DNA of 64,000 nucleotides from Nonomuraea sp. NBC_00507. Lineage in GTDB: Bacteria; Actinomycetota; Actinomycetes; Streptosporangiales; Streptosporangiaceae. Position numbers and translations under genes: made by a program. The stretch is taken from positions 9,610,001 through 9,674,000 of the forward strand of contig NZ_CP107853.1 of the NCBI RefSeq assembly GCF_036013525.1, written 5' to 3'. Positions 16,559 to 24,721 of the stretch are shown one piece after another (the first letter of the stretch is position 1; each line of letters opens with the position of its first letter). The notes beneath the pieces were generated by a model. That model searched no databases, was not told the DNA's origin, and saw only the letters and a list, made by a program, of their open reading frames with translations.

Positions 16559-17240
16559 GGCCGGTGTGACGGCCCAGCGGACGCCCCTTCACGAACCGGC
16601 TTGGCGGGCCCTACCCCCCGGTCAAGGGCCCGACAGCCGCGGCGACCTGCGCGGTCACCGGTGAGTCCGGCGCATCAGAAACTGCGGTGAGCCTCTCGGC
16701 TCGTCCCCCCGATGCGCCGAGGTGGCTTTCCGATGCCGAAACACTACGGTCGCGATCTTGTGGGCGAAACCCCGTTTATAGGCAGCTCGTTGAACGGTCC
16801 GTAGCCAGCGATATACGGAGAGTGCTGTTGCGACGAGCGGTCACCGCCGATCGACGAACGGTCGATTCGGGGGCTCGCAACGCGCTCCGGCGGATTCAAC
16901 CCGGCCCCCGTCCACTCGCCCCACGCCGCAGCCGACCGGTTTGACCAGGGGAATCATGACCATCGCGGCGAAGGCGAGCGGCACGGCGACCGGGCGCGGG
17001 GCGCGAACCGCGCACGCCCATTCACGCCCACCTTGCGCCGCGGAACGCACCTCCCGGCTGACCGCGGCACCCGCGTCAGGCACGGCGGCCAAGCGCCTGC
17101 GACGCCACCAGGACGCCTCCAGAGGCGGCCATGACGGCCCTAAGGCCCCAGGCCGCGTAGACGGTTCCCCGCCGCCATCCCTACGGCTCCAGGAAGCTTC
17201 CTGACGGACGACGGCGGCTACAGGGCGGCGGCCGGGAGCG
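16559..17240. other. Gene-poor stretch, about 680 bp
   Basis: No reading frame here has a recognisable protein, a good ribosome site or conserved motifs on either strand. Parts near 16.73-16.83 kb are less GC-rich than the flanks. No tRNA, IS end or riboswitch was recognised. It may be a decayed gene or a spacer. Confidence 0.5.
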
Positions 17241-17981
17241 TCACGACATCACACCCCTGTGCTGGCGCACGAGCTGCTCGCGCACCTGCCGGCTGTGCCG
17301 CCTGCTGACTTGGAGCGTCTCCGTGCCGACGGTGAGCGTCACCCGCCCGCCTTCGAACCTGAGCTCGCTGACGTGCCTGGCCGACACCAGCGTGCTGCGG
17401 TGGATGCGCAGGAATCCGTCCTCCGACCAGCGTCGCTCCAGCGCGGCCAGTGACATGCGCACCAGATAGCTGCCGTCGACCGTGTGCAGGCGCACGTAGT
17501 CGCCTTTGGCCTCGGCGAACCAGACGGCCTGCTGCGGCACGAACCTGGTCCGCCCGCCCAGCTCGACCGGGATCACGTCGTCCTGGCCGGGCTCGGGCGC
17601 GGGGGCGGTGGCGGCCTCCAGCCGGCGCACGGCCTCGGCCAGCCGCTCGGCCCGCACCGGCTTGAGCAGATAGTCCACGGCCTCCAGCTCGAACGCCTGC
17701 ACCGCGCACTCTTCGTGCGCCGTGACGAACACCAGCCGGGGCGGGCTCGGGAAGCCGCCGACCAGCCTGGCCAGGTCCAGCCCGTCGAGCCCGGGCATCC
17801 GGATGTCGAGGAACACCCCGTCGAGCCGCTCGCCGCCGCCGATCATCTGGACCATGTCCTGCAATGCCGTGACGCCGTCGGCCGCGGTCATCACGTGCTC
17901 GATCCGGTCGTCCTGGCGCAGCAGATAGGCGAGCTCTTCCAGGGCGGGCACCTCATCATCCACGGCCAGAACTCTCAGCAT
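17241..17981 (-). CDS. LytTR-family response regulator
   Basis: Two-component regulator of 246 aa. The receiver domain (1-120) has LAVDDEVPALEELAYLL with acidic Asp9-Asp10, phospho-acceptor Asp in GVFLDIRMPGLDGL, conserved Thr/Ser in FVTAHEE and Lys in DYLLKPV. The C-terminal LytTR domain (about 145-245) has the HTVDGSYLVRMSLAALERRW and FLRIHRSTLVSARHV patterns and binds DNA by beta-strands. It lies 65 bp downstream of its likely partner kinase and is probably in one transcript. Its targets are not evident. Confidence 0.92.
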   Translation of the reverse strand: MLRVLAVDDEVPALEELAYLLRQDDRIEHVMTAADGVTALQDMVQMIGGGERLDGVFLDIRMPGLDGLDLARLVGGFPSPPRLVFVTAHEECAVQAFELEAVDYLLKPVRAERLAEAVRRLEAATAPAPEPGQDDVIPVELGGRTRFVPQQAVWFAEAKGDYVRLHTVDGSYLVRMSLAALERRWSEDGFLRIHRSTLVSARHVSELRFEGGRVTLTVGTETLQVSRRHSRQVREQLVRQHRGVMS

Positions 17982-18046
17982 GTCCCCACGCTGCCGCATG
18001 CGAGCAAAGGCCACAAGGGACACGCCAACATTACGTAAGGATATGA

Positions 18047-19192
18047 CTACAATGAGCTAAGTTGCGTCTTGGGCACCCGCAGCCGCACCTTGGTGCCGGC
18101 GCCCAGCGCCGTCTCGACGACGAGCCCGTAGCCGTCACCGTAGATCTGGCGCATCCGCAGATCCACGTTGGCCAGCCCGATGCCGCTGCCCTCGCGGGCG
18201 GGGTCGGCGTCCAGGATGCGCCTGGCGCATTCCGGGTCCATCCCGGCGCCGTCGTCCTCGACCGTGATGTGCGCCTCGGGGCCGGCGTCGCGCACCACGA
18301 CGCGGACCTCGCCGGCGCCGCGGCGGCCTCGCATGCCGTGCTTGATGGCGTTCTCGACCAGTGGTTGCAGGCACAGGAACGGCACGGGCACGGGCAGCAC
18401 CTCCGGCGCCACCTGCATGCTGAAGCGCAGCCTGTCGCCGAACCGGGCACGCTCCAGCAGCAGGTAGCGGTCGACGCAGGTCAGCTCGTCGGCCAGGGTG
18501 GTGAAGTCTTGGGCCCGGCCCAGCGCGTACCGGGCGAAGTCGGCGAAGTCGAGCAGCAGCTCGCGGGCGCGCTTGGGGTCCGTGCGGACGAACGAGGCGA
18601 TCGTCGTCAGCGCGTTGTAGACGAAGTGCGGCGAGATCTGGGCACGCAGCGCGCGCATCTCCGCCTCGAGCGCGTGCCGCCGCGAGGCGTCGAGCTCGGC
18701 CAGCTCCAGCTGGCCGGAGACCCAGCGGCCGACCTCGGACACGGTACGGACCAGCGCGGCGCTGATCTCGTCGTCGAAGGCCGCCAGCGCCCCGACGACC
18801 GTGCCGTCCACGGTCAGCGGCACCACGACGGCTCCGTGCGGCTCTCCCGCGAAGACCTCCGGCCGCCCGGCGGCCAGCGCGGCGCGAGCGTAGGTGACGA
18901 CGTCGTCCGTGCACGGCCCGTCCCAGGCCAGCGCGGCCTCGGTCGAGGTGATCGCGACGGCGCGGGTGCCGAGCAACGCGCGCAGATGGCGTACGGCCTT
19001 GCTAGCGGAGTCGCGGTTGAGCCCCGTGCGCAGGGCCGGGGCGGCCATCGCGGCGATGTGCAGCGTGGCGAACGTCGCCTCTTCCTTACACCGGCCGGCC
19101 GGCGGCGCGGGGCGGCGCGAGCGCGCCCGGGCGAGGACGTGGCCGGCGACGAAGGCCAGGCTTGACAGCGCCACGCACGCGGTGGTCAGCAT
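18047..19192 (-). CDS. LytS/YehU-type sensor histidine kinase
   Basis: Kinase of 381 aa with one N-terminal membrane helix (about 5-22), a GAF-like region (about 45-165) and a His_kinase module. The H-box is ISPHFVYNALTTIASF with the phospho-acceptor His. The ATPase part has VENAIKHG, DDGAGMD and GSGIGLANVDLRM. It differs from multi-pass LytS in having only one membrane segment, so the signal may be cytoplasmic. A TACGGT box (19200-19205) 7 nt before the ATG suggests a leaderless transcript. Partner: the LytTR regulator downstream. Confidence 0.9.
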   Translation of the reverse strand: MLTTACVALSSLAFVAGHVLARARSRRPAPPAGRCKEEATFATLHIAAMAAPALRTGLNRDSASKAVRHLRALLGTRAVAITSTEAALAWDGPCTDDVVTYARAALAAGRPEVFAGEPHGAVVVPLTVDGTVVGALAAFDDEISAALVRTVSEVGRWVSGQLELAELDASRRHALEAEMRALRAQISPHFVYNALTTIASFVRTDPKRARELLLDFADFARYALGRAQDFTTLADELTCVDRYLLLERARFGDRLRFSMQVAPEVLPVPVPFLCLQPLVENAIKHGMRGRRGAGEVRVVVRDAGPEAHITVEDDGAGMDPECARRILDADPAREGSGIGLANVDLRMRQIYGDGYGLVVETALGAGTKVRLRVPKTQLSSL

Positions 19193-19246
19193 GCCAGTAA
19201 CCGTAGCCAAGAACGCACCGTGTCCGGGTGAAAACGGAGAGTGAAA

Positions 19247-19879
19247 TCAGGGTGGTCCCTCGCCGGGTTCTTCCTGGTAGGAGTAGCGCTGCTCGCGCCA
19301 GGGATCGGCGATGTTGTGGTATCCGCGCTCCTCCCAGAAGCCTCGGCGATCTTCGAGGAGGTATTCGATGCCGCGCACCCATTTGACGCTCTTCCACGCG
19401 TAAAGGTGGGGGACCACGATCCGCAGCGGATAGCCGCGGTCGGGGCTGAGCGGTTTTTCGTCAAGCTCCATGGCGAACAGCGTGTCGGCCGCGGTGAAAT
19501 CGGACATGCGCAGGTTGGCGCTGTAGCCGTATTCGGCCCAGATCATCACGTGCCGGACGCCGGGGTCGGGCGGGGCGGCCGCCATGATCGTGGCCGGGGC
19601 GACCCCGCGCCACTCGTTGGCCATGAGCGAGAACTTGGTGACGCAGTGGAAGTCGGCGAGGCGGGTGGTGCGGGGCAGCGCCTCGAACTCGCCCCAGGTG
19701 AAGCGGTGCTCCGCTCCTGAGGCGGTGGCGCCGAAGACGCGGAAGTCCCAGCTCTCCGGCTTGAACAGCGGCACTCTGCCGTAGTGGATCACGGGTCGGC
19801 CGCGCGGGACGTACTGGCCTGGAGGCAGGCGCGACTCCTCCACGATCACTCCCCTCACCGGTCTCGCGTCTTGGGCCAT
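19247..19879 (-). CDS. Sulfite oxidase-like molybdopterin oxidoreductase
   Basis: A 210-aa protein of the oxidoreductase molybdopterin-binding (SuoX/YedY) superfamily. It lacks a dimerisation domain and a signal peptide, so it is probably cytosolic. The molybdenum-ligand cysteine is in LADFHCVTKFSLMANEWRG. GYPLRIVVPHLYAWKSVKWV and YHNIADPWREQRY are the usual C-terminal blocks of the short actinobacterial members. The physiological substrate is unknown. ATG 19879 is assigned by homology; the local SD is poor. It is divergent from the aroF leader, 58 bp away. Confidence 0.85.
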   Translation of the reverse strand: MAQDARPVRGVIVEESRLPPGQYVPRGRPVIHYGRVPLFKPESWDFRVFGATASGAEHRFTWGEFEALPRTTRLADFHCVTKFSLMANEWRGVAPATIMAAAPPDPGVRHVMIWAEYGYSANLRMSDFTAADTLFAMELDEKPLSPDRGYPLRIVVPHLYAWKSVKWVRGIEYLLEDRRGFWEERGYHNIADPWREQRYSYQEEPGEGPP

Positions 19880-19923
19880 CCTGCCATCGGACCGCTTGTG
19901 GCTCGCGCGCGGGTCTCGTGCGC

Positions 19924-19929
19924 TACCAT
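19924..19929 (+). promoter_or_regulatory. Candidate -10 for the aroF leader transcript
   Basis: TACCAT lies 8 nt before the leader-peptide ATG, so the leader mRNA may be nearly leaderless. No clear -35 is seen. Confidence 0.45.
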
Positions 19930-19937
19930 TACGGGCT

Positions 19938-20006
19938 ATGCGCACCGCGTACGTGTTTTGGTATGGCGACGGACCCGAGTCCGTTCGCCACCTGACGCTG
20001 CGCTAG
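19938..20006 (+). CDS. Aromatic leader peptide of the aroF attenuator
   Basis: A 22-codon open frame MRTAYVFWYGDGPESVRHLTLR ends 71 bp before aroF. It holds Tyr, Phe, Trp and Tyr codons at residues 5, 7, 8 and 9, so it can register shortage of any of the three aromatic amino acids made from DAHP. The stop codon (20004-20006) lies between the arms of the downstream hairpins. Stalling at codons 5-9 would leave 19971 onward free to form the antiterminator. Translation to the stop would cover it and let the terminator form. The frame is seen directly; its translation and role are inferred from this arrangement. Confidence 0.85.
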   Translation: MRTAYVFWYGDGPESVRHLTLR

Positions 20007-20034
20007 CAGACAGGCGAACGAAGGCCCCGGGTCC
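19971..20034 (+). promoter_or_regulatory. Predicted antiterminator of the aroF attenuator
   Basis: GGACCCG (19971-19977) can pair with CGGGTCC (20028-20034), which is part of the left terminator arm. Nested inside, CGTTCGCC (19982-19989) pairs with GGCGAACG (20013-20020). These pairings compete with the terminator and overlap the 3' half of the leader peptide frame. Confidence 0.7.
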
Positions 20035-20052
20035 AACAGGACCCGGGGCCTT
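20021..20052 (+). terminator. Attenuator terminator upstream of aroF
   Basis: AAGGCCCCGGGTCC (20021-20034) and GGACCCGGGGCCTT (20039-20052) form a perfect 14-bp stem with an AACA loop, followed by a T-rich tail CTGTGTTTTC. It sits between the leader peptide and the aroF ribosome site. Confidence 0.9.
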
Positions 20053-20077
20053 CTGTGTTTTCACAGGAGGATTTCAG

Positions 20078-21109
20078 ATGGTGATCGTGATGGGGCCCGA
20101 GGCCACACCCGCGGATCTGGCGTCGATCGTCGAGGTCGTCCAGGCGGCCGGGGTGGAGGCGTTCGTCAGCAAGGGGGTGCGGCGCACGATCGTCGGCCTG
20201 GTCGGCGACGTGACACAGCTCGACGAGGCGAGCCTGCGCGGCATGGGGGGCGTGCGCGAGGTCATGCGCGTGTCCACGCCGTACAAGCTGGTCAGCAGGG
20301 AGAATCATCCGGAACGCTCCACGATCCACGTGGGCGGCGTGCCGATCGGTCCCGACACTGTGACGTTGATCGCGGGGCCGTGTGCCGTGGAGACGCATCA
20401 GCAGACCCTCGACGCGGCGAGGATGGCGCAGGCGGCCGGGGCGACGCTGCTGCGCGGCGGCGCGTTCAAGCCGCGCACCTCGCCGTACGCCTTCCAGGGT
20501 CTGGGCGAGAAGGGCCTGCGCATCCTGGCCGACGTGCGCGAGGAGACCGGGCTGCCGATCGTCACCGAGGTGGTGGACGCCCAGGACGTGGCGCTGGTGG
20601 CCTCCTACGCGGACATGCTGCAGGTCGGCACCCGCAACATGCAGAACTTCGCGCTGCTGCAGGCGGTCGGCGCGGCGGGGAAGCCGGTGATGCTCAAGCG
20701 CGGCATGAGCTCCACGATCGAGGAGTGGCTCATGGCCGCCGAGTACATCGCCCAGCGCGGCAACCTCGACATCGTGCTGTGCGAGCGGGGCATCAGGACG
20801 TTCGAGAAGGCGACCCGCAACACGCTCGACGTGTCGGCCGTGCCGGTGGCGCAGCGCCTGTCCCACCTGCCGGTCATCGTCGATCCTTCGCACTCGGGCG
20901 GGCGGCGCGACCTGGTGCTGCCGCTGACCCGGGCGGCCATCGCGGTCGGCGCGGACGGTGTGATCATCGACGTGCACCCGCAGCCCGAGCAGGCGCTCTG
21001 CGACGGCCCGCAGGCTCTGATCGACTCCGACCTGGGCGAGCTGGCCCAGGTCATGACCGACTTCCCGGCTATGCTCGGCAAGTCGGCCGCGACCGTGGTC
21101 ACCGTCTGA
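20078..21109 (+). CDS. aroF: DAHP synthase, AroF type I-beta
   Basis: Condenses phosphoenolpyruvate and erythrose 4-phosphate to DAHP, the first step of aromatic amino acid synthesis. It is 343 aa from ATG 20078, with SD AGGAGG 7 nt upstream. Residues 1-70 form the ferredoxin-like regulatory domain of Thermotoga-type enzymes. The barrel has LIAGPCAVET, GGAFKPRTSPYAFQGLG, VGTRNMQNFALLQA, MLKRGMSS, DPSHSGGRRDL and DVHPQPEQALCDGPQAL. Streptomyces more often use the unrelated type II enzyme. Control is probably by attenuation through the upstream leader, possibly with allosteric control through the N-domain. Confidence 0.95.
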   Translation: MVIVMGPEATPADLASIVEVVQAAGVEAFVSKGVRRTIVGLVGDVTQLDEASLRGMGGVREVMRVSTPYKLVSRENHPERSTIHVGGVPIGPDTVTLIAGPCAVETHQQTLDAARMAQAAGATLLRGGAFKPRTSPYAFQGLGEKGLRILADVREETGLPIVTEVVDAQDVALVASYADMLQVGTRNMQNFALLQAVGAAGKPVMLKRGMSSTIEEWLMAAEYIAQRGNLDIVLCERGIRTFEKATRNTLDVSAVPVAQRLSHLPVIVDPSHSGGRRDLVLPLTRAAIAVGADGVIIDVHPQPEQALCDGPQALIDSDLGELAQVMTDFPAMLGKSAATVVTV

Positions 21110-21204
21110 CCTGCCGGCACGGCCGGGCCGGCTGGGTGTACTCAGCGGTAACTTGAGTATTTCGCCCGATGCGCCGCGCCGACCCGGGAACACACCATGG
21201 GCGC

Positions 21205-21492
21205 ATGACGAAGCCCATCCAACCGACGCAGACCACCGCGTTCTACGTCCAGGCGATCCTGTCGTTCGCCGTCTCGCTGACCTCCGTGGTGATCGCCCTG
21301 GTCTACCTGCCCGTCGAAGGGTGGATCAGGGCGTTCCTCGGGCTCGGGCTGCTGTACGTGGTCACCTCCACGGTCACGCTCTGCAAGATCGTACGCGACC
21401 GGCAGGAGCTGGCCGAGGTGAGCAAGCGCGTCGACCAGGCCAGGCTCGACAAGCTGCTGACCGAGCACGACCCGTTCAAGGTTGACGCCTGA
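21205..21492 (+). CDS. YiaA/YiaB-type two-helix membrane protein
   Basis: A 95-aa protein with two hydrophobic helices (about 13-33 and 40-62; AILSFAVSLTSVVIALVYLP and GLGLLYVVTSTVTLCKIV) joined by a short loop. A charged C-terminal helix ends DPFKVDA. The pattern fits the YiaAB two-helix domain, which has no known function. An inverted repeat TACTCA/TGAGTA (21139-21144, 21154-21159) lies in its upstream region. ATG 21205 is chosen by the domain; no strong SD. Confidence 0.75.
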   Translation: MTKPIQPTQTTAFYVQAILSFAVSLTSVVIALVYLPVEGWIRAFLGLGLLYVVTSTVTLCKIVRDRQELAEVSKRVDQARLDKLLTEHDPFKVDA

Positions 21493-21540
21493 CCTGACGA
21501 CGGCGATCGCCGGCGGGCGGATCCGGGACAGGGACGGCCC

Positions 21541-22458
21541 TCAGAGGTCGCGTGTCCACCACTGCTCGGTGAGCTCGATCCCGTTCTCCCTCCCCTTCTC
21601 CTCCTTCTCCAGCTGGAACCCGGCTGCCTGGTAGATGCGCCGCGCGCTCACCAGGCAGTCGCGCGTCCACAGCGTGATGCGCTTGCAGCCCTCCGCCTTG
21701 GCGTGGCGCAGGCACTCCTCCACCAGCCGCCGGCCGAGGCCCATCCCGCGCGCGGACGGCTCGACCAGCAACATCCGCAGCTTGGCCGTCGTGTCGTCCT
21801 GACGCACGTAGAACACGCACCCGGCGCGTTCCCCGCCGGCCTCGGCGATCCACCCGGCGTCCTTGGAGAAGTCGAGATCGCCCACGATCTTCGCGACGGT
21901 CTGCTCGAACGCGGTGCCCCAGCCGTACTCGCGGCTGTAGAGCTCGCCGTGCCGGTAGACGACCCAGCCCAGATCGCCGGTGCGCGGCGGCCTGATCACG
22001 TACGGCTCCCGGCCGGGCTCCGGCGCCAGCAGGCCCCTGATCGTCGCCATGCTCGCCACGAGCCGCTCCTGGTCCCCCTCCGGCAGCCCGGACAGCAGCC
22101 GCTCGATCTCCTCGGCCGAGCGCTTGTCGAGCCCCGCGAAGGTGGCCGCGCCCGCGGGCGTGAGGCGCAGGAGCTGCTTGCGCGCGTCGGCGGCGGACCG
22201 CTCGCGCTCGACCAGCCCGTCGCTCTCGAACCGGGTCAGGATCCTGCTGAGGTAGCCCGCGTCCAGGCCGAGCAGGGCACGCAGCTCGCCGGTCTCCATC
22301 CGCTCGGCGTGCGCGAGCTCGAACAGCACCCGCACTTCGGTCAACGAGTACGGCGAGTCGAGCAGCCCTGACTGCAGGACGCCGATCACCTTCGTATAGA
22401 ACCGATTGAAGGCTCTTACTTCAGAAACCCTTGCTTCTGTCAATGAACTCACTGTCAT
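21541..22458 (-). CDS. MarR-GNAT bifunctional regulator/acetyltransferase
   Basis: A 305-aa fusion. Residues 1-145 are a MarR winged helix (SLTEVRVLFELAH, GLDAGYLSRILTRFESDGLV, RSAADARKQLLRLTPAG). Residues 150-305 are a GNAT acetyltransferase with the acetyl-CoA loop VEPSARGMGLGRRLVEECL. This architecture is a known family; targets are unknown. ATG 22458 is 25 bp from the divergent lactonase start, so it probably controls that promoter and its own. The sequence between is rich in TGTCA/TGAC half-sites. Confidence 0.88.
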   Translation of the reverse strand: MTVSSLTEARVSEVRAFNRFYTKVIGVLQSGLLDSPYSLTEVRVLFELAHAERMETGELRALLGLDAGYLSRILTRFESDGLVERERSAADARKQLLRLTPAGAATFAGLDKRSAEEIERLLSGLPEGDQERLVASMATIRGLLAPEPGREPYVIRPPRTGDLGWVVYRHGELYSREYGWGTAFEQTVAKIVGDLDFSKDAGWIAEAGGERAGCVFYVRQDDTTAKLRMLLVEPSARGMGLGRRLVEECLRHAKAEGCKRITLWTRDCLVSARRIYQAAGFQLEKEEKGRENGIELTEQWWTRDL

Positions 22459-22483
22459 AGTCAACCATGGAAGGATCGCCGCT

Positions 22484-23398
22484 GTGAAGCAGCTGCGCAT
22501 AGGCGGATACGGCCCAGGCATCGTCACCATCGCCGCGGGTATCAGCCCGGGTCTCACCGAAGTCGCGGCGCCGTCGTTCCTGGCCGCCCACCCCTCGCTG
22601 CCGGTGCTGTACGCGGCGAGTGAGCTCGACAGCGGCGTGCTCACCGCCTTCGACGCCCGCGACGGGCTGACACCGCTGGACGAGCGGCCGAGCGAGGGCT
22701 CGCTGCCCTGTCACGTGGCCGTCGATCCCACGGGGAGCCTGCTCGCGGCGGCCAACTACGGCGACGGCACGGCGATCATCCAGCGGCTGGACGGGCGGGG
22801 CGCGTTCGACGGCGACCCGATCGTGCTGCGCCACAAGGGCTCGGGCCCGGTCGCCGGCCGCCAGGAAGGTCCACACGCCCACCAGGCCGTCTTCCACGAC
22901 GGCCTGCTGCACGTCTCCGACCTCGGCACGGACGAGATCCGCCGCTACCGCTACGACGGCACGCCGGTGGAGCCGATCGTCCTGCACCCGGGCACCGGCC
23001 CGCGGCACTTCGCCTTCGCGGGCTCCCGCCTGTACGTGGCGGGCGAGCTCGACGGCGCCGTCACCCTCATCGACGGCGAGTGGCGCACGGTCGCGCCCGC
23101 CTCCCGTCACGAGGGCGAGAACTCCCTGTCCCACCTGCAGCTCGAGGGCGACCTGGTCTATGTGGGCAACCGGGGGCCCAACACGATCTCGGTGCTGCGG
23201 GCCGCCGACCTGTCCCTGGTGGCCGAGCTGCCCTCCGGAGGCGACTGGCCCCGGCACTTCGCCATCGACGGCGACCGTCTGTACGTGGCCAATCAGCGCT
23301 CGAACGCCGTGACCGTCTTCGCGCTGCGCGACGGCGTCCCGGAGCCGACCGGCGAGGCGTACGAGGTCGAGAGCCCGGCCTGCGTGCTGAGCACGTAG
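22484..23398 (+). CDS. Lactonase family beta-propeller (6-phosphogluconolactonase-like)
   Basis: A 304-aa seven-bladed beta-propeller of the lactonase family. Repeated blade motifs are visible: CHVAVDPTGSLLAAANYGDG, QEGPHAHQAVFHDG, GTGPRHFAFAG, SHLQLEGDLVYVGNRG and WPRHFAIDGDRLYVANQRS. The conserved PHAHQ and GPRH residues match Pgl-type active sites. Hydrolysis of 6-phosphogluconolactone or another sugar lactone is likely. GTG 22484 follows SD GGAAGGA. Divergent from the MarR-GNAT gene. Confidence 0.82.
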   Translation: MKQLRIGGYGPGIVTIAAGISPGLTEVAAPSFLAAHPSLPVLYAASELDSGVLTAFDARDGLTPLDERPSEGSLPCHVAVDPTGSLLAAANYGDGTAIIQRLDGRGAFDGDPIVLRHKGSGPVAGRQEGPHAHQAVFHDGLLHVSDLGTDEIRRYRYDGTPVEPIVLHPGTGPRHFAFAGSRLYVAGELDGAVTLIDGEWRTVAPASRHEGENSLSHLQLEGDLVYVGNRGPNTISVLRAADLSLVAELPSGGDWPRHFAIDGDRLYVANQRSNAVTVFALRDGVPEPTGEAYEVESPACVLST

Positions 23399-23607
23399 GG
23401 GGACACCGCCCTGGCGATCAGGTACGAATCCACCGTCCCCACCGCCACACAACCCAGCCGGACTCGGGGAAATGCTGGGCGAATTCCCTTGGACGCAATA
23501 TGCCCGTTTTCGGGGACAACGAGCGCGGTGATCCCTATTGTCCCAGCGATGGCCGACACACCCGCGAAATTTCCTCCGTGCGATGTTTGCGTTACGGACC
23601 TGGCGTT

Positions 23608-23619
23608 TGGTCTAGACCA
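23608..23619. promoter_or_regulatory. DasR-like operator (dre) upstream of pfkA
   Basis: TGGTCTAGACCA is a perfect 12-bp palindrome and equals the core of the dre consensus bound by the GntR-family GlcNAc regulator DasR. It lies 76 bp before the pfkA start. The surrounding 297-bp spacer (23399-23695) holds no gene that I can support. Confidence 0.75.
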
Positions 23620-23695
23620 CTGGGCGCGCGGACGGGCAGAATGCGAGTCTGAATACTGAGGTTTGGTCCGTGAACCCCATCGGGAGGAACCCGCC

Positions 23696-24721
23696 ATGCG
23701 TATTGGAGTGCTCACAGGGGGCGGCGACTGCCCCGGGCTCAACGCCGTGATCAGGGCAGTGGTGCGTAAGGGGGTGAGCGTCTACGGCCACGAGTTCGTC
23801 GGCTTCCGCGACGGCTGGCGCGGCCCCCTCGAAGGCGACACGATGCCGCTGGACATCCAGTCCGTGCGCGGCATCCTGCCCCGCGGCGGGACCATCCTGG
23901 GCTCCTCCCGGACCAACCCCATCAAGATCGAGGGCGGAGTCGACCGGATCAAGGACAACCTGGCCACCACCGGCGTGGACGCGCTGATCGCCATCGGCGG
24001 CGAGGACACCCTCGGCGTCGCCAAGCAGCTCTACGACCGCGGCGTCCACGTCGTGGGCGTGCCCAAGACCATCGACAACGACCTGTCGGGCACCGACTAC
24101 ACCTTCGGCTTCGACACCGCCGTCAACATCGCGACGGAGGCCATCGACCGCCTCCACACCACCGCGGAGTCCCACCACCGCGCCCTCATCTGCGAGGTCA
24201 TGGGCCGGCACGCGGGCTGGATCGCGCTGCACGCGGGCATGGCGGGCGGCGCCAATGTCATCCTCATCCCGGAGAAGCCGTTCGACATCGACCAGGTCTG
24301 CGAATACGTCGAGTCCCGCTTCCGCACCCGCTACTCGCCGATCATCGTGGTCGCCGAGGGCGCGCATCCGATCGAGGGCCAGATGGAGCTGCAGGCCGGC
24401 GAGCTCGACGCCTTCGGCCACGTCCGGCTGGGCGGCATCGGCGAGATGCTGGCCAAGGAGATCGAGAAGCGCACCGGCAAGGAGGCGCGCACCACGGTGC
24501 TCGGCCACATCCAGCGCGGCGGCACCCCGTCGGCCTACGACCGGGTGCTGGCCACCCGCTTCGGGCTGCAGGCCATCGACGCGGCCCACGAGGGCGACTT
24601 CGGCACGATGGTCGCCCTGCGCGGCACCGACATCGTCCGCGTCGGCCTCGACGAGGCCACGGCCGAGCTGAAGACCGTGCCGGTGGAGCGTTATTCCGAG
24701 GCCGAGGTCTTCTTCGGTTAG
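23696..24721 (+). CDS. pfkA: 6-Phosphofructokinase, likely pyrophosphate-dependent
   Basis: Phosphorylates fructose 6-phosphate. It is 341 aa from ATG 23696 (SD GGGAGGA). N-terminal VLTGGGDCPGLNAVIRA, catalytic PKTIDND at 123-129 and VMGRHAGWIALHAG are all present. The loop reads GGED, placing Asp at position 104, and the next motif has Lys at 124. In this family Asp104 with Lys124 marks PPi as phosphoryl donor, while Gly104 marks ATP. It should therefore be a reversible PPi-type enzyme like that of Amycolatopsis methanolica; this needs enzymology. A DasR-like palindrome upstream suggests control by aminosugar supply. Confidence 0.93.
   Translation: MRIGVLTGGGDCPGLNAVIRAVVRKGVSVYGHEFVGFRDGWRGPLEGDTMPLDIQSVRGILPRGGTILGSSRTNPIKIEGGVDRIKDNLATTGVDALIAIGGEDTLGVAKQLYDRGVHVVGVPKTIDNDLSGTDYTFGFDTAVNIATEAIDRLHTTAESHHRALICEVMGRHAGWIALHAGMAGGANVILIPEKPFDIDQVCEYVESRFRTRYSPIIVVAEGAHPIEGQMELQAGELDAFGHVRLGGIGEMLAKEIEKRTGKEARTTVLGHIQRGGTPSAYDRVLATRFGLQAIDAAHEGDFGTMVALRGTDIVRVGLDEATAELKTVPVERYSEAEVFFG

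Follow-up and report, generated by a model that had tools for sequence, protein, structure and literature searches.

A leader with Phe, Trp and Tyr codons and a candidate transcription attenuator upstream of aroF in Nonomuraea and related actinobacteria

The leader region of aroF

The window analysed here, a stretch of 64,000 nucleotides from Nonomuraea sp. NBC_00507, carries the DAHP synthase gene aroF, preceded by a short leader frame rich in aromatic codons and by a set of hairpins (Table 1). The AroF protein scores 389 bits against TIGR01361 (cut-off 267.75) and 597 against the BagF/FevY model, under the cut-off of 700 of the latter, and type I-beta is assumed here as the label of its DAHP synthase family. 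The genome, of 12.9 Mb, possesses a type II DAHP synthase besides aroF, and no aromatic leader was found within 400 nt upstream of the domain match of this type II enzyme.

Table 1. Features of the aroF leader region, in window positions
Feature	Position	Strand	Basis and remarks
-10 element TACCAT; promoter probably leaderless	19924..19929	+	Read directly; TANNNT recurs in relatives
Leader ORF MRTAYVFWYGDGPESVRHLTLR	19938..20006	+	22 codons and stop; ATG 19938, TAG 20006; read directly
Aromatic codon block TAC GTG TTT TGG TAT (Tyr5 Val6 Phe7 Trp8 Tyr9)	19950..19964	+	Read directly
Segment 1, 5' arm of the 1:2 hairpin, GGCGACGGAC	19965..19974	+	Folding and comparison across leaders
GGACCCG, 5' strand of the outer antiterminator helix	19971..19977	+	Partner 20028-20034; two-sided changes in 3 of 7 pairs
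Segment 2, 3' arm of the 1:2 hairpin	19979..19989	+	19982-19989 CGTTCGCC pairs with segment 3 too
Segment 3a, inner antiterminator helix, GGCGAACG	20013..20020	+	Partner 19982-19989; folding, window sequence only
Terminator 5' arm, segment 3b	20020..20034	+	Covarying helix
Terminator 3' arm (20039-20053) and T-rich tail TGTGTTTT	20039..20061	+	Read directly; terminator scan
Shine-Dalgarno-like AGGAGGA of aroF	20065..20071	+	Read directly
aroF, DAHP synthase, 343 aa	20078..21109	+	TIGR01361 and PRK08673 above cut-off

A preliminary description of this region had claimed a 22-codon frame with the run Tyr-Val-Phe-Trp-Tyr, a terminator with a T-rich tail, a Shine-Dalgarno sequence and then aroF, as well as the pairing of GGACCCG with the left terminator arm, and all of these were recovered by direct reading and folding. 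The stem, however, had been given as a perfect 14 bp, and it consists of 15 perfect pairs (20020-20034 with 20039-20053) closed by a 4-nt loop. Two terminator-like sites occur in 19700-20300, compared to a shuffle mean of 0.2, the second one being a weak 6-bp site at 19937-19951. All four segments of a classical attenuator are found in the window, with free folding energies of -15.6 kcal/mol for the 1:2 hairpin, -33.2 for the antiterminator and -36.2 for the terminator.

The leader transcript is probably leaderless, because TACCAT ends 8 nt from the ATG and no Shine-Dalgarno sequence is seen ahead of this codon; a scan for the sigma-70 consensus found no promoter-like site. The attenuators studied by Neshat et al. 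in 2014, among them aroR before aroF of Corynebacterium glutamicum, are reportedly leaderless as well. On the minus strand, a divergent ORF (19247-19945) has matches to the MsrP/SoxC molybdopterin sulfite oxidase family, far below cut-off, and its true start probably lies further in, since the longest ORF, with its GTG at 19945, would run into the leader. A search of 17000-24000 against Rfam returned three matches at E ≤1, none overlapping 19924-20077, so that a riboswitch or T-box in the leader is unsupported.

Conservation, codon choice and covariation

Upstream regions were collected from the best 80 of 578 confirmed aroF loci, from a second homologue set (196 of 200 family genomes matched at E ≤0.001, some weakly, in at least 150 places, giving 29 new loci) and from another 60 places, 46 of which represent one genus each. 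Including the window, this resulted in 170 regions, reduced to 157 by merging those identical in their last 160 nt, of which 154 are at least 150 nt long. To be called a leader, an ORF had to span 10-45 codons and to hold three or more aromatics in six residues. The conservation that the preliminary description had proposed to look for is present, as an aromatic leader ORF was called in 133 of the 154 distinct regions, compared to 2.7% of 1540 dinucleotide shuffles, these counts coming from related sequences and not from independent events. Leaders with at least four aromatics occur in 108 regions (0.06% of shuffles), and in 130 the leader start codon has TANNNT 4-9 nt ahead of it, as opposed to none of the 1540 shuffles.

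After three doubtful calls were dropped, 130 leaders were kept: that of the window, 55 of 78 from the set of the best 80 of 578, and 74 of 75 from the other loci. They represent 112 distinct peptides, and near-identical rows remain; the closest match among those listed, Nonomuraea sp. G32 (L004), has an AroF protein 100% identical to that of the window and a single difference in the last 160 nt. The eight-codon block contains F, W and Y in 113 leaders, F and Y in 16 and F and W in one, several of the W-less blocks belonging to Nocardioides and Actinoallomurus. At this threshold no leader was called in 21 of the 154 regions, all within the best 80 of 578, including Actinophytocola, Amycolatopsis, bins of Frankiales and Pseudonocardiales, one Streptomyces, the second copy of Actinomadura oligospora and some Nocardioides (L057, L066, L080) with just two aromatics in their leader.

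Some individual loci can be mentioned. Streptosporangium canum (L044) and A. oligospora (L052) have an I-beta aroF without a called leader, L052 being a second aroF copy in the same assembly as L030, which carries one. In L058, within about 190 nt before the gene, the leader-like MQQLTYWFGH... apparently runs without an in-frame stop before aroF and was not called. In the genome of the window, the covariance model R1 gave 22 matches at E ≤1, the best (112.7 bits) being the window itself and the next reaching 36.5 bits. ORF scans of four of these loci (L175, L177, L180, L181) found no convincing aromatic leader, and they were taken as plain GC-rich hairpins and not as a second copy of the element.

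Two codons of the block, TTT and TAT, are otherwise avoided. In 80 aroF genes, counted over their first 333 codons, TTT accounts for 0 of 479 Phe codons and TAT for 5 of 361 Tyr codons, as opposed to 151 of 249 and 128 of 180, respectively, in the leaders (133, before dropping three). Counting from the last aromatic codon as position 0, TTT makes up 83 of the 95 Phe codons at -2, while Phe at -4 is mostly TTC (56/77). At position 0, Tyr is present in 112 of 128 leaders, in 104 of them as TAT. The use of TTT and TAT at the putative stall positions fits slow, charging-sensitive decoding; alternatively, the bias possibly stems from a need for unpaired U-rich RNA.

A terminator-like hairpin follows 128 of the 130 aroF leaders, with at least three T in 119. 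Regarding the 1:2 hairpin, the first 6 nt after the block are paired (mean P >0.7) in 111 of 119 leaders compared to 29% of shuffles, and its arms vary among groups (GGCGACGG, GGCTACCG, GACCAGCC, GACGAGCC and others) with their complementarity kept. In an alignment of 18 leaders, 7 of 14 terminator pairs show two-sided changes, and the covariation score of the structure formed by the terminator and a start-stop stem was matched by none of 500 shuffles. For the outer antiterminator helix the score was matched by 2 of 500 shuffles, with columns 60/134 holding A-U in 4 and G-C in 12 of the 18 sequences, and the terminator 3' arm changes in step (columns 134/145, C-G in 13 and U-A in 5); two of the five measures of this helix were not above shuffles, namely pairs with two-sided changes (125/500) and further pair types (205/500). 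When antiterminator strands of the GDG type were combined with terminator arms of other clades, pairing dropped from 19.9 to 12.1; the drop was small in the reverse direction (18.0 to 17.1) and absent within clades, and thus the compensatory signal lies mostly between clades. The start-stop stem, in which GCGCA (19940-19944) can pair with TGCGC (19999-20003), is conserved according to RNAalifold, and it may merely reflect the codons, since it has no two-sided changes.

Leaders upstream of chorismate mutase genes

Within the class, R1 matched 248 of 394 genomes at E ≤0.001, and 20 matches outside the family were fetched. Nine of them precede chorismate mutase and five precede an I-beta aroF (L216, L219, L221, L222 and L224, two of them with W, and L221 being seemingly the same locus as L071); the other six lack an aromatic leader and look like plain terminators. 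Two of the nine chorismate mutase proteins were checked against PF01817 and match it over the cut-off (34.7 and 45 vs 27), the remaining seven being named from sequence.

Seven of the nine loci come from one genus, g85, which is probably Streptomyces and in which chorismate mutase is present in 61 of 61 genomes searched. A leader, typically MLTHPTFLFTYGNRPAGCHGRAA, was found in 29 of the 30 g85 loci given, the thirtieth having only about 110 nt upstream. In these 29 leaders the block ends in F-x-F-x-Y or Y-x-F-x-Y and has no W, with Phe encoded by TTT 29 times and TTC 27 times and Tyr by TAT 29 times and TAC three times; their modelled stall profile peaks at -2 (-18.7) and then goes down to -4.9. 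Terminators with at least three T follow 26 of the 29, and the strict TANNNT precedes only part of the leader starts, CATACT standing instead in the six inspected. Leaders of the F-x-F-x-Y kind before g85 chorismate mutase are seen at L231-L260, L212-L215, L226 and L230.

A looser leader threshold was applied to thirty further chorismate mutase loci, of which one (L274) belongs to g85 and 29 to other families. Among the 29, 10 have an aromatic leader, one is doubtful (L292) and 18 have none, including L291 with only 79 nt upstream; the g85 leader L274 contains W (WFSY). The leaders of other families are shorter Phe/Tyr ones, e.g., QRRFFYGYRPAVPVV, at L263-L266, L272, L275, L276, L278, L282 and L284. 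In the genome of the window itself, no aromatic leader was found in the 700 nt scanned before the chorismate mutase domain (L261, L262).

The rule applied to aroF finds W in the block of two of 48 distinct chorismate mutase leaders (L263, L274) and two other rules find it in one (L274), compared to 114 of 130 aroF leaders by all three rules; the corresponding Fisher value for the 29 g85 leaders against the aroF leaders, 1e-20, is inflated by the relatedness of the sequences. As the branch opened by chorismate mutase yields Phe and Tyr and not Trp, the codon content of the leaders appears to follow the pathway, although the W-less aroF blocks (16/130) count against a strict rule for the Trp codon. 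The shared TTTACCTATGGC and CCGGCCCG suggest that the aroF and chorismate mutase leaders may descend from one ancestor. That the Trp codon simply goes with the lack of a type II DAHP synthase is unsupported: the genome of the window has both the codon and the enzyme, and a type II match is found in 163 of 200 family genomes.

Predicted switching, competing explanations and precedents

Stalling was modelled by equilibrium folding of RNA ending in the terminator loop, with the positions covered by the ribosome blocked. With the A site at codons 2-8, the outer antiterminator helix of the window is predicted with P of at least 0.85, dropping to 0.38 at codon 9; the inner helix has about 0.9 throughout codons 2-9, and neither helix forms at codons 13-18. 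The preliminary description had placed GGACCCG under a ribosome finishing the leader, but the ribosome positioned on the stop codon covers roughly 19987-20016, and this motif is at least partly covered from about codon 9 to codon 19. With the ribosome at codons 20-23, the outer helix is able to re-form before the terminator 3' arm exists, and up to the appearance of this arm the antiterminator is also favoured at equilibrium in the RNA without ribosome; in the full-length RNA, the terminator folds in every ribosome state. As equilibrium folding keeps the antiterminator without ribosome, and its outer helix at codons 20-23, timing must matter, and according to the model, termination under rich conditions has to come from the transit of the ribosome, from the 1:2 hairpin folding early or from the very strong terminator.

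Across 128 leaders, the terminator 5' arm is predicted to be sequestered most strongly when the A site lies 1-3 codons ahead of the last aromatic codon (medians of -13.4 to -15.8 kcal/mol, with the median maximum at -2); the effect falls to about -5 at +3 to +9 and is back to about -11 at +11 to +14. Shuffling the stretch between block and terminator weakens the median at -2 from the native -15.8 to -8.1, and 90 of 119 leaders are better than all 10 of their own shuffles. The maximum stays inside the block for ribosome 3' edges of +9, +12 and +15, moving to -1 with +12 and to 0 with +9. The regulatory codons are thus in register with the hairpins, and in equilibrium folding a stall there is predicted to favour the antiterminator.

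The main reading, to which a probability of roughly 0.87 can be given, is a classical ribosome-mediated transcription attenuator, where lack of any of Phe, Trp and Tyr switches aroF on. RNA polymerase would start at or beside the leader AUG, the ribosome then loading on the leaderless 5' end. When the supply of charged Phe, Trp or Tyr tRNA runs low, the ribosome would stall with a codon of the block in its A site, covering segment 1 or keeping the 1:2 hairpin open, so that segment 2 and the stretch after the block could pair with segment 3, including the terminator 5' arm, as the antiterminator, and aroF would be transcribed. With all three tRNAs charged, the ribosome would pass over the antiterminator strands, the terminator would form and transcription would stop. 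This arrangement would act as an OR gate, a shortage of any one aromatic amino acid raising the first enzyme of the common pathway. If true, three end products are read together by one short peptide where a branched pathway begins, the chorismate mutase version is a natural control lacking the Trp input, and the element offers an easy target in the sequence for freeing aromatic supply from control in actinomycetes making aromatic-derived antibiotics.

Each of the three amino acids likely counts. The strongest competitor, which we consider distinctly less probable and still to be taken seriously, accepts the attenuator and holds that one or two aromatics are effective, most likely Phe and Trp as the best-placed, the other codons being passengers. 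It draws on excerpts of a review covering Corynebacterium glutamicum, where the aroR leader answers to Phe and Tyr limitation is ineffective although Tyr is in the leader (PMC11802643), a result that by analogy may serve as a warning on whether all three count. Trp is also absent from 14 of 130 whole aroF leaders, and the contribution of the last block codon, Tyr9 in the window, depends on the modelled footprint: under the longest (+15) it gives about half of the effect (-7.9), whereas it reaches -13.2 with +12, nearly the best, and -15.5 with +9, where the last position is the best. Against passenger codons stand also the preference for Tyr at this last position, mostly as the almost-unused TAT, and the strong difference in Trp between the aroF and chorismate mutase blocks.

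A TnaC-like nascent-peptide arrest, in which the peptide senses free aromatics or stalls the ribosome, could draw on the good conservation of FWYGDGP within one clade, and we regard it as very improbable: residues interchange within the block (W/F at -1, F/R at -2, F/Y/W at -4), the part after it differs among clades (GDGP, GYRP, DQPG) while the hairpin stays, and the block of the window ends at residue 9, which is probably too short for a tunnel-length arrest. Equally hard to credit is a conserved small protein gene followed by a constitutive dampener terminator without sensing, since the conserved peptide stretches that would speak for it come together with a register between codons and antiterminator, the use of otherwise avoided codons and a set of codons that is not the same in the leaders of aroF and of chorismate mutase.

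Beyond the single locus, the attenuator reading can be extended with some reserve, and on balance we lean towards it, to an actinobacterial family of leaderless "aromatic" attenuators whose codons are tuned to the branch: F/W/Y at the I-beta DAHP synthase and, apart from a few exceptions, F/Y at chorismate mutase. A single element would have moved between the genes, losing or gaining the Trp codon, with the stall positions marked by the otherwise avoided TTT and TAT and with a three-input OR gate at the entry of the shikimate pathway.

The AroF controlled by aroR in C. glutamicum is presumably a type I-alpha enzyme. As far as the excerpts of both reports go, this system is the nearest precedent (PMC4046766), sharing with the window a mixed aromatic leader, a DAHP synthase and ribosome stalling (PMC4046766, PMC11802643), but its leader has Phe-Tyr-Phe without Trp instead of YVFWY. 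The preliminary description, which considered a combined sensor unusual, had missed this precedent; its idea of a mixed Tyr/Phe/Trp attenuator is supported here by conservation, structure, register and codon choice, while the 1:2 hairpin and the inner antiterminator helix had escaped it. A limited literature search, covering sources in part, found no description of an FWY leader or of a chorismate mutase leader, which is weak evidence of absence. What appears to be new here is the FWY variant of a known attenuation mechanism.

In the parts of the literature available, other attenuators are more distant. A motif before aroF in Shewanella, of another phylum, is a predicted attenuator sensing tyr-tRNA, thus Tyr alone (PMC2659441), and putative attenuators of unspecified sensing lie ahead of aroA-I-beta operons in other phyla (PMC1173090, Table 7). 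Excerpts of a survey of RNA elements in actinobacteria from 2005 state that conserved RNA structures were not seen ahead of phenylalanine or tyrosine operons (PMC1262725), and the S. lividans table of eight leader peptides, as excerpted, has neither an aroF nor a chorismate mutase element (PMC8079986). The trp attenuators of Corynebacterium and Streptomyces are alike in their classical leader, GC-rich terminator and antiterminator, but respond to the single amino acid Trp, at trpE or trpS (PMC1262725, PMC8079986). The ilv attenuators (IlvL of S. lividans, PMC8079986, Table 4) resemble the window in that one leader serves several end products of a branched pathway, these being branched-chain amino acids, unlike the aromatics of the window. 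In S. lividans, trpL1 is transcribed leaderless, according to the excerpts of the same report (PMC8079986).
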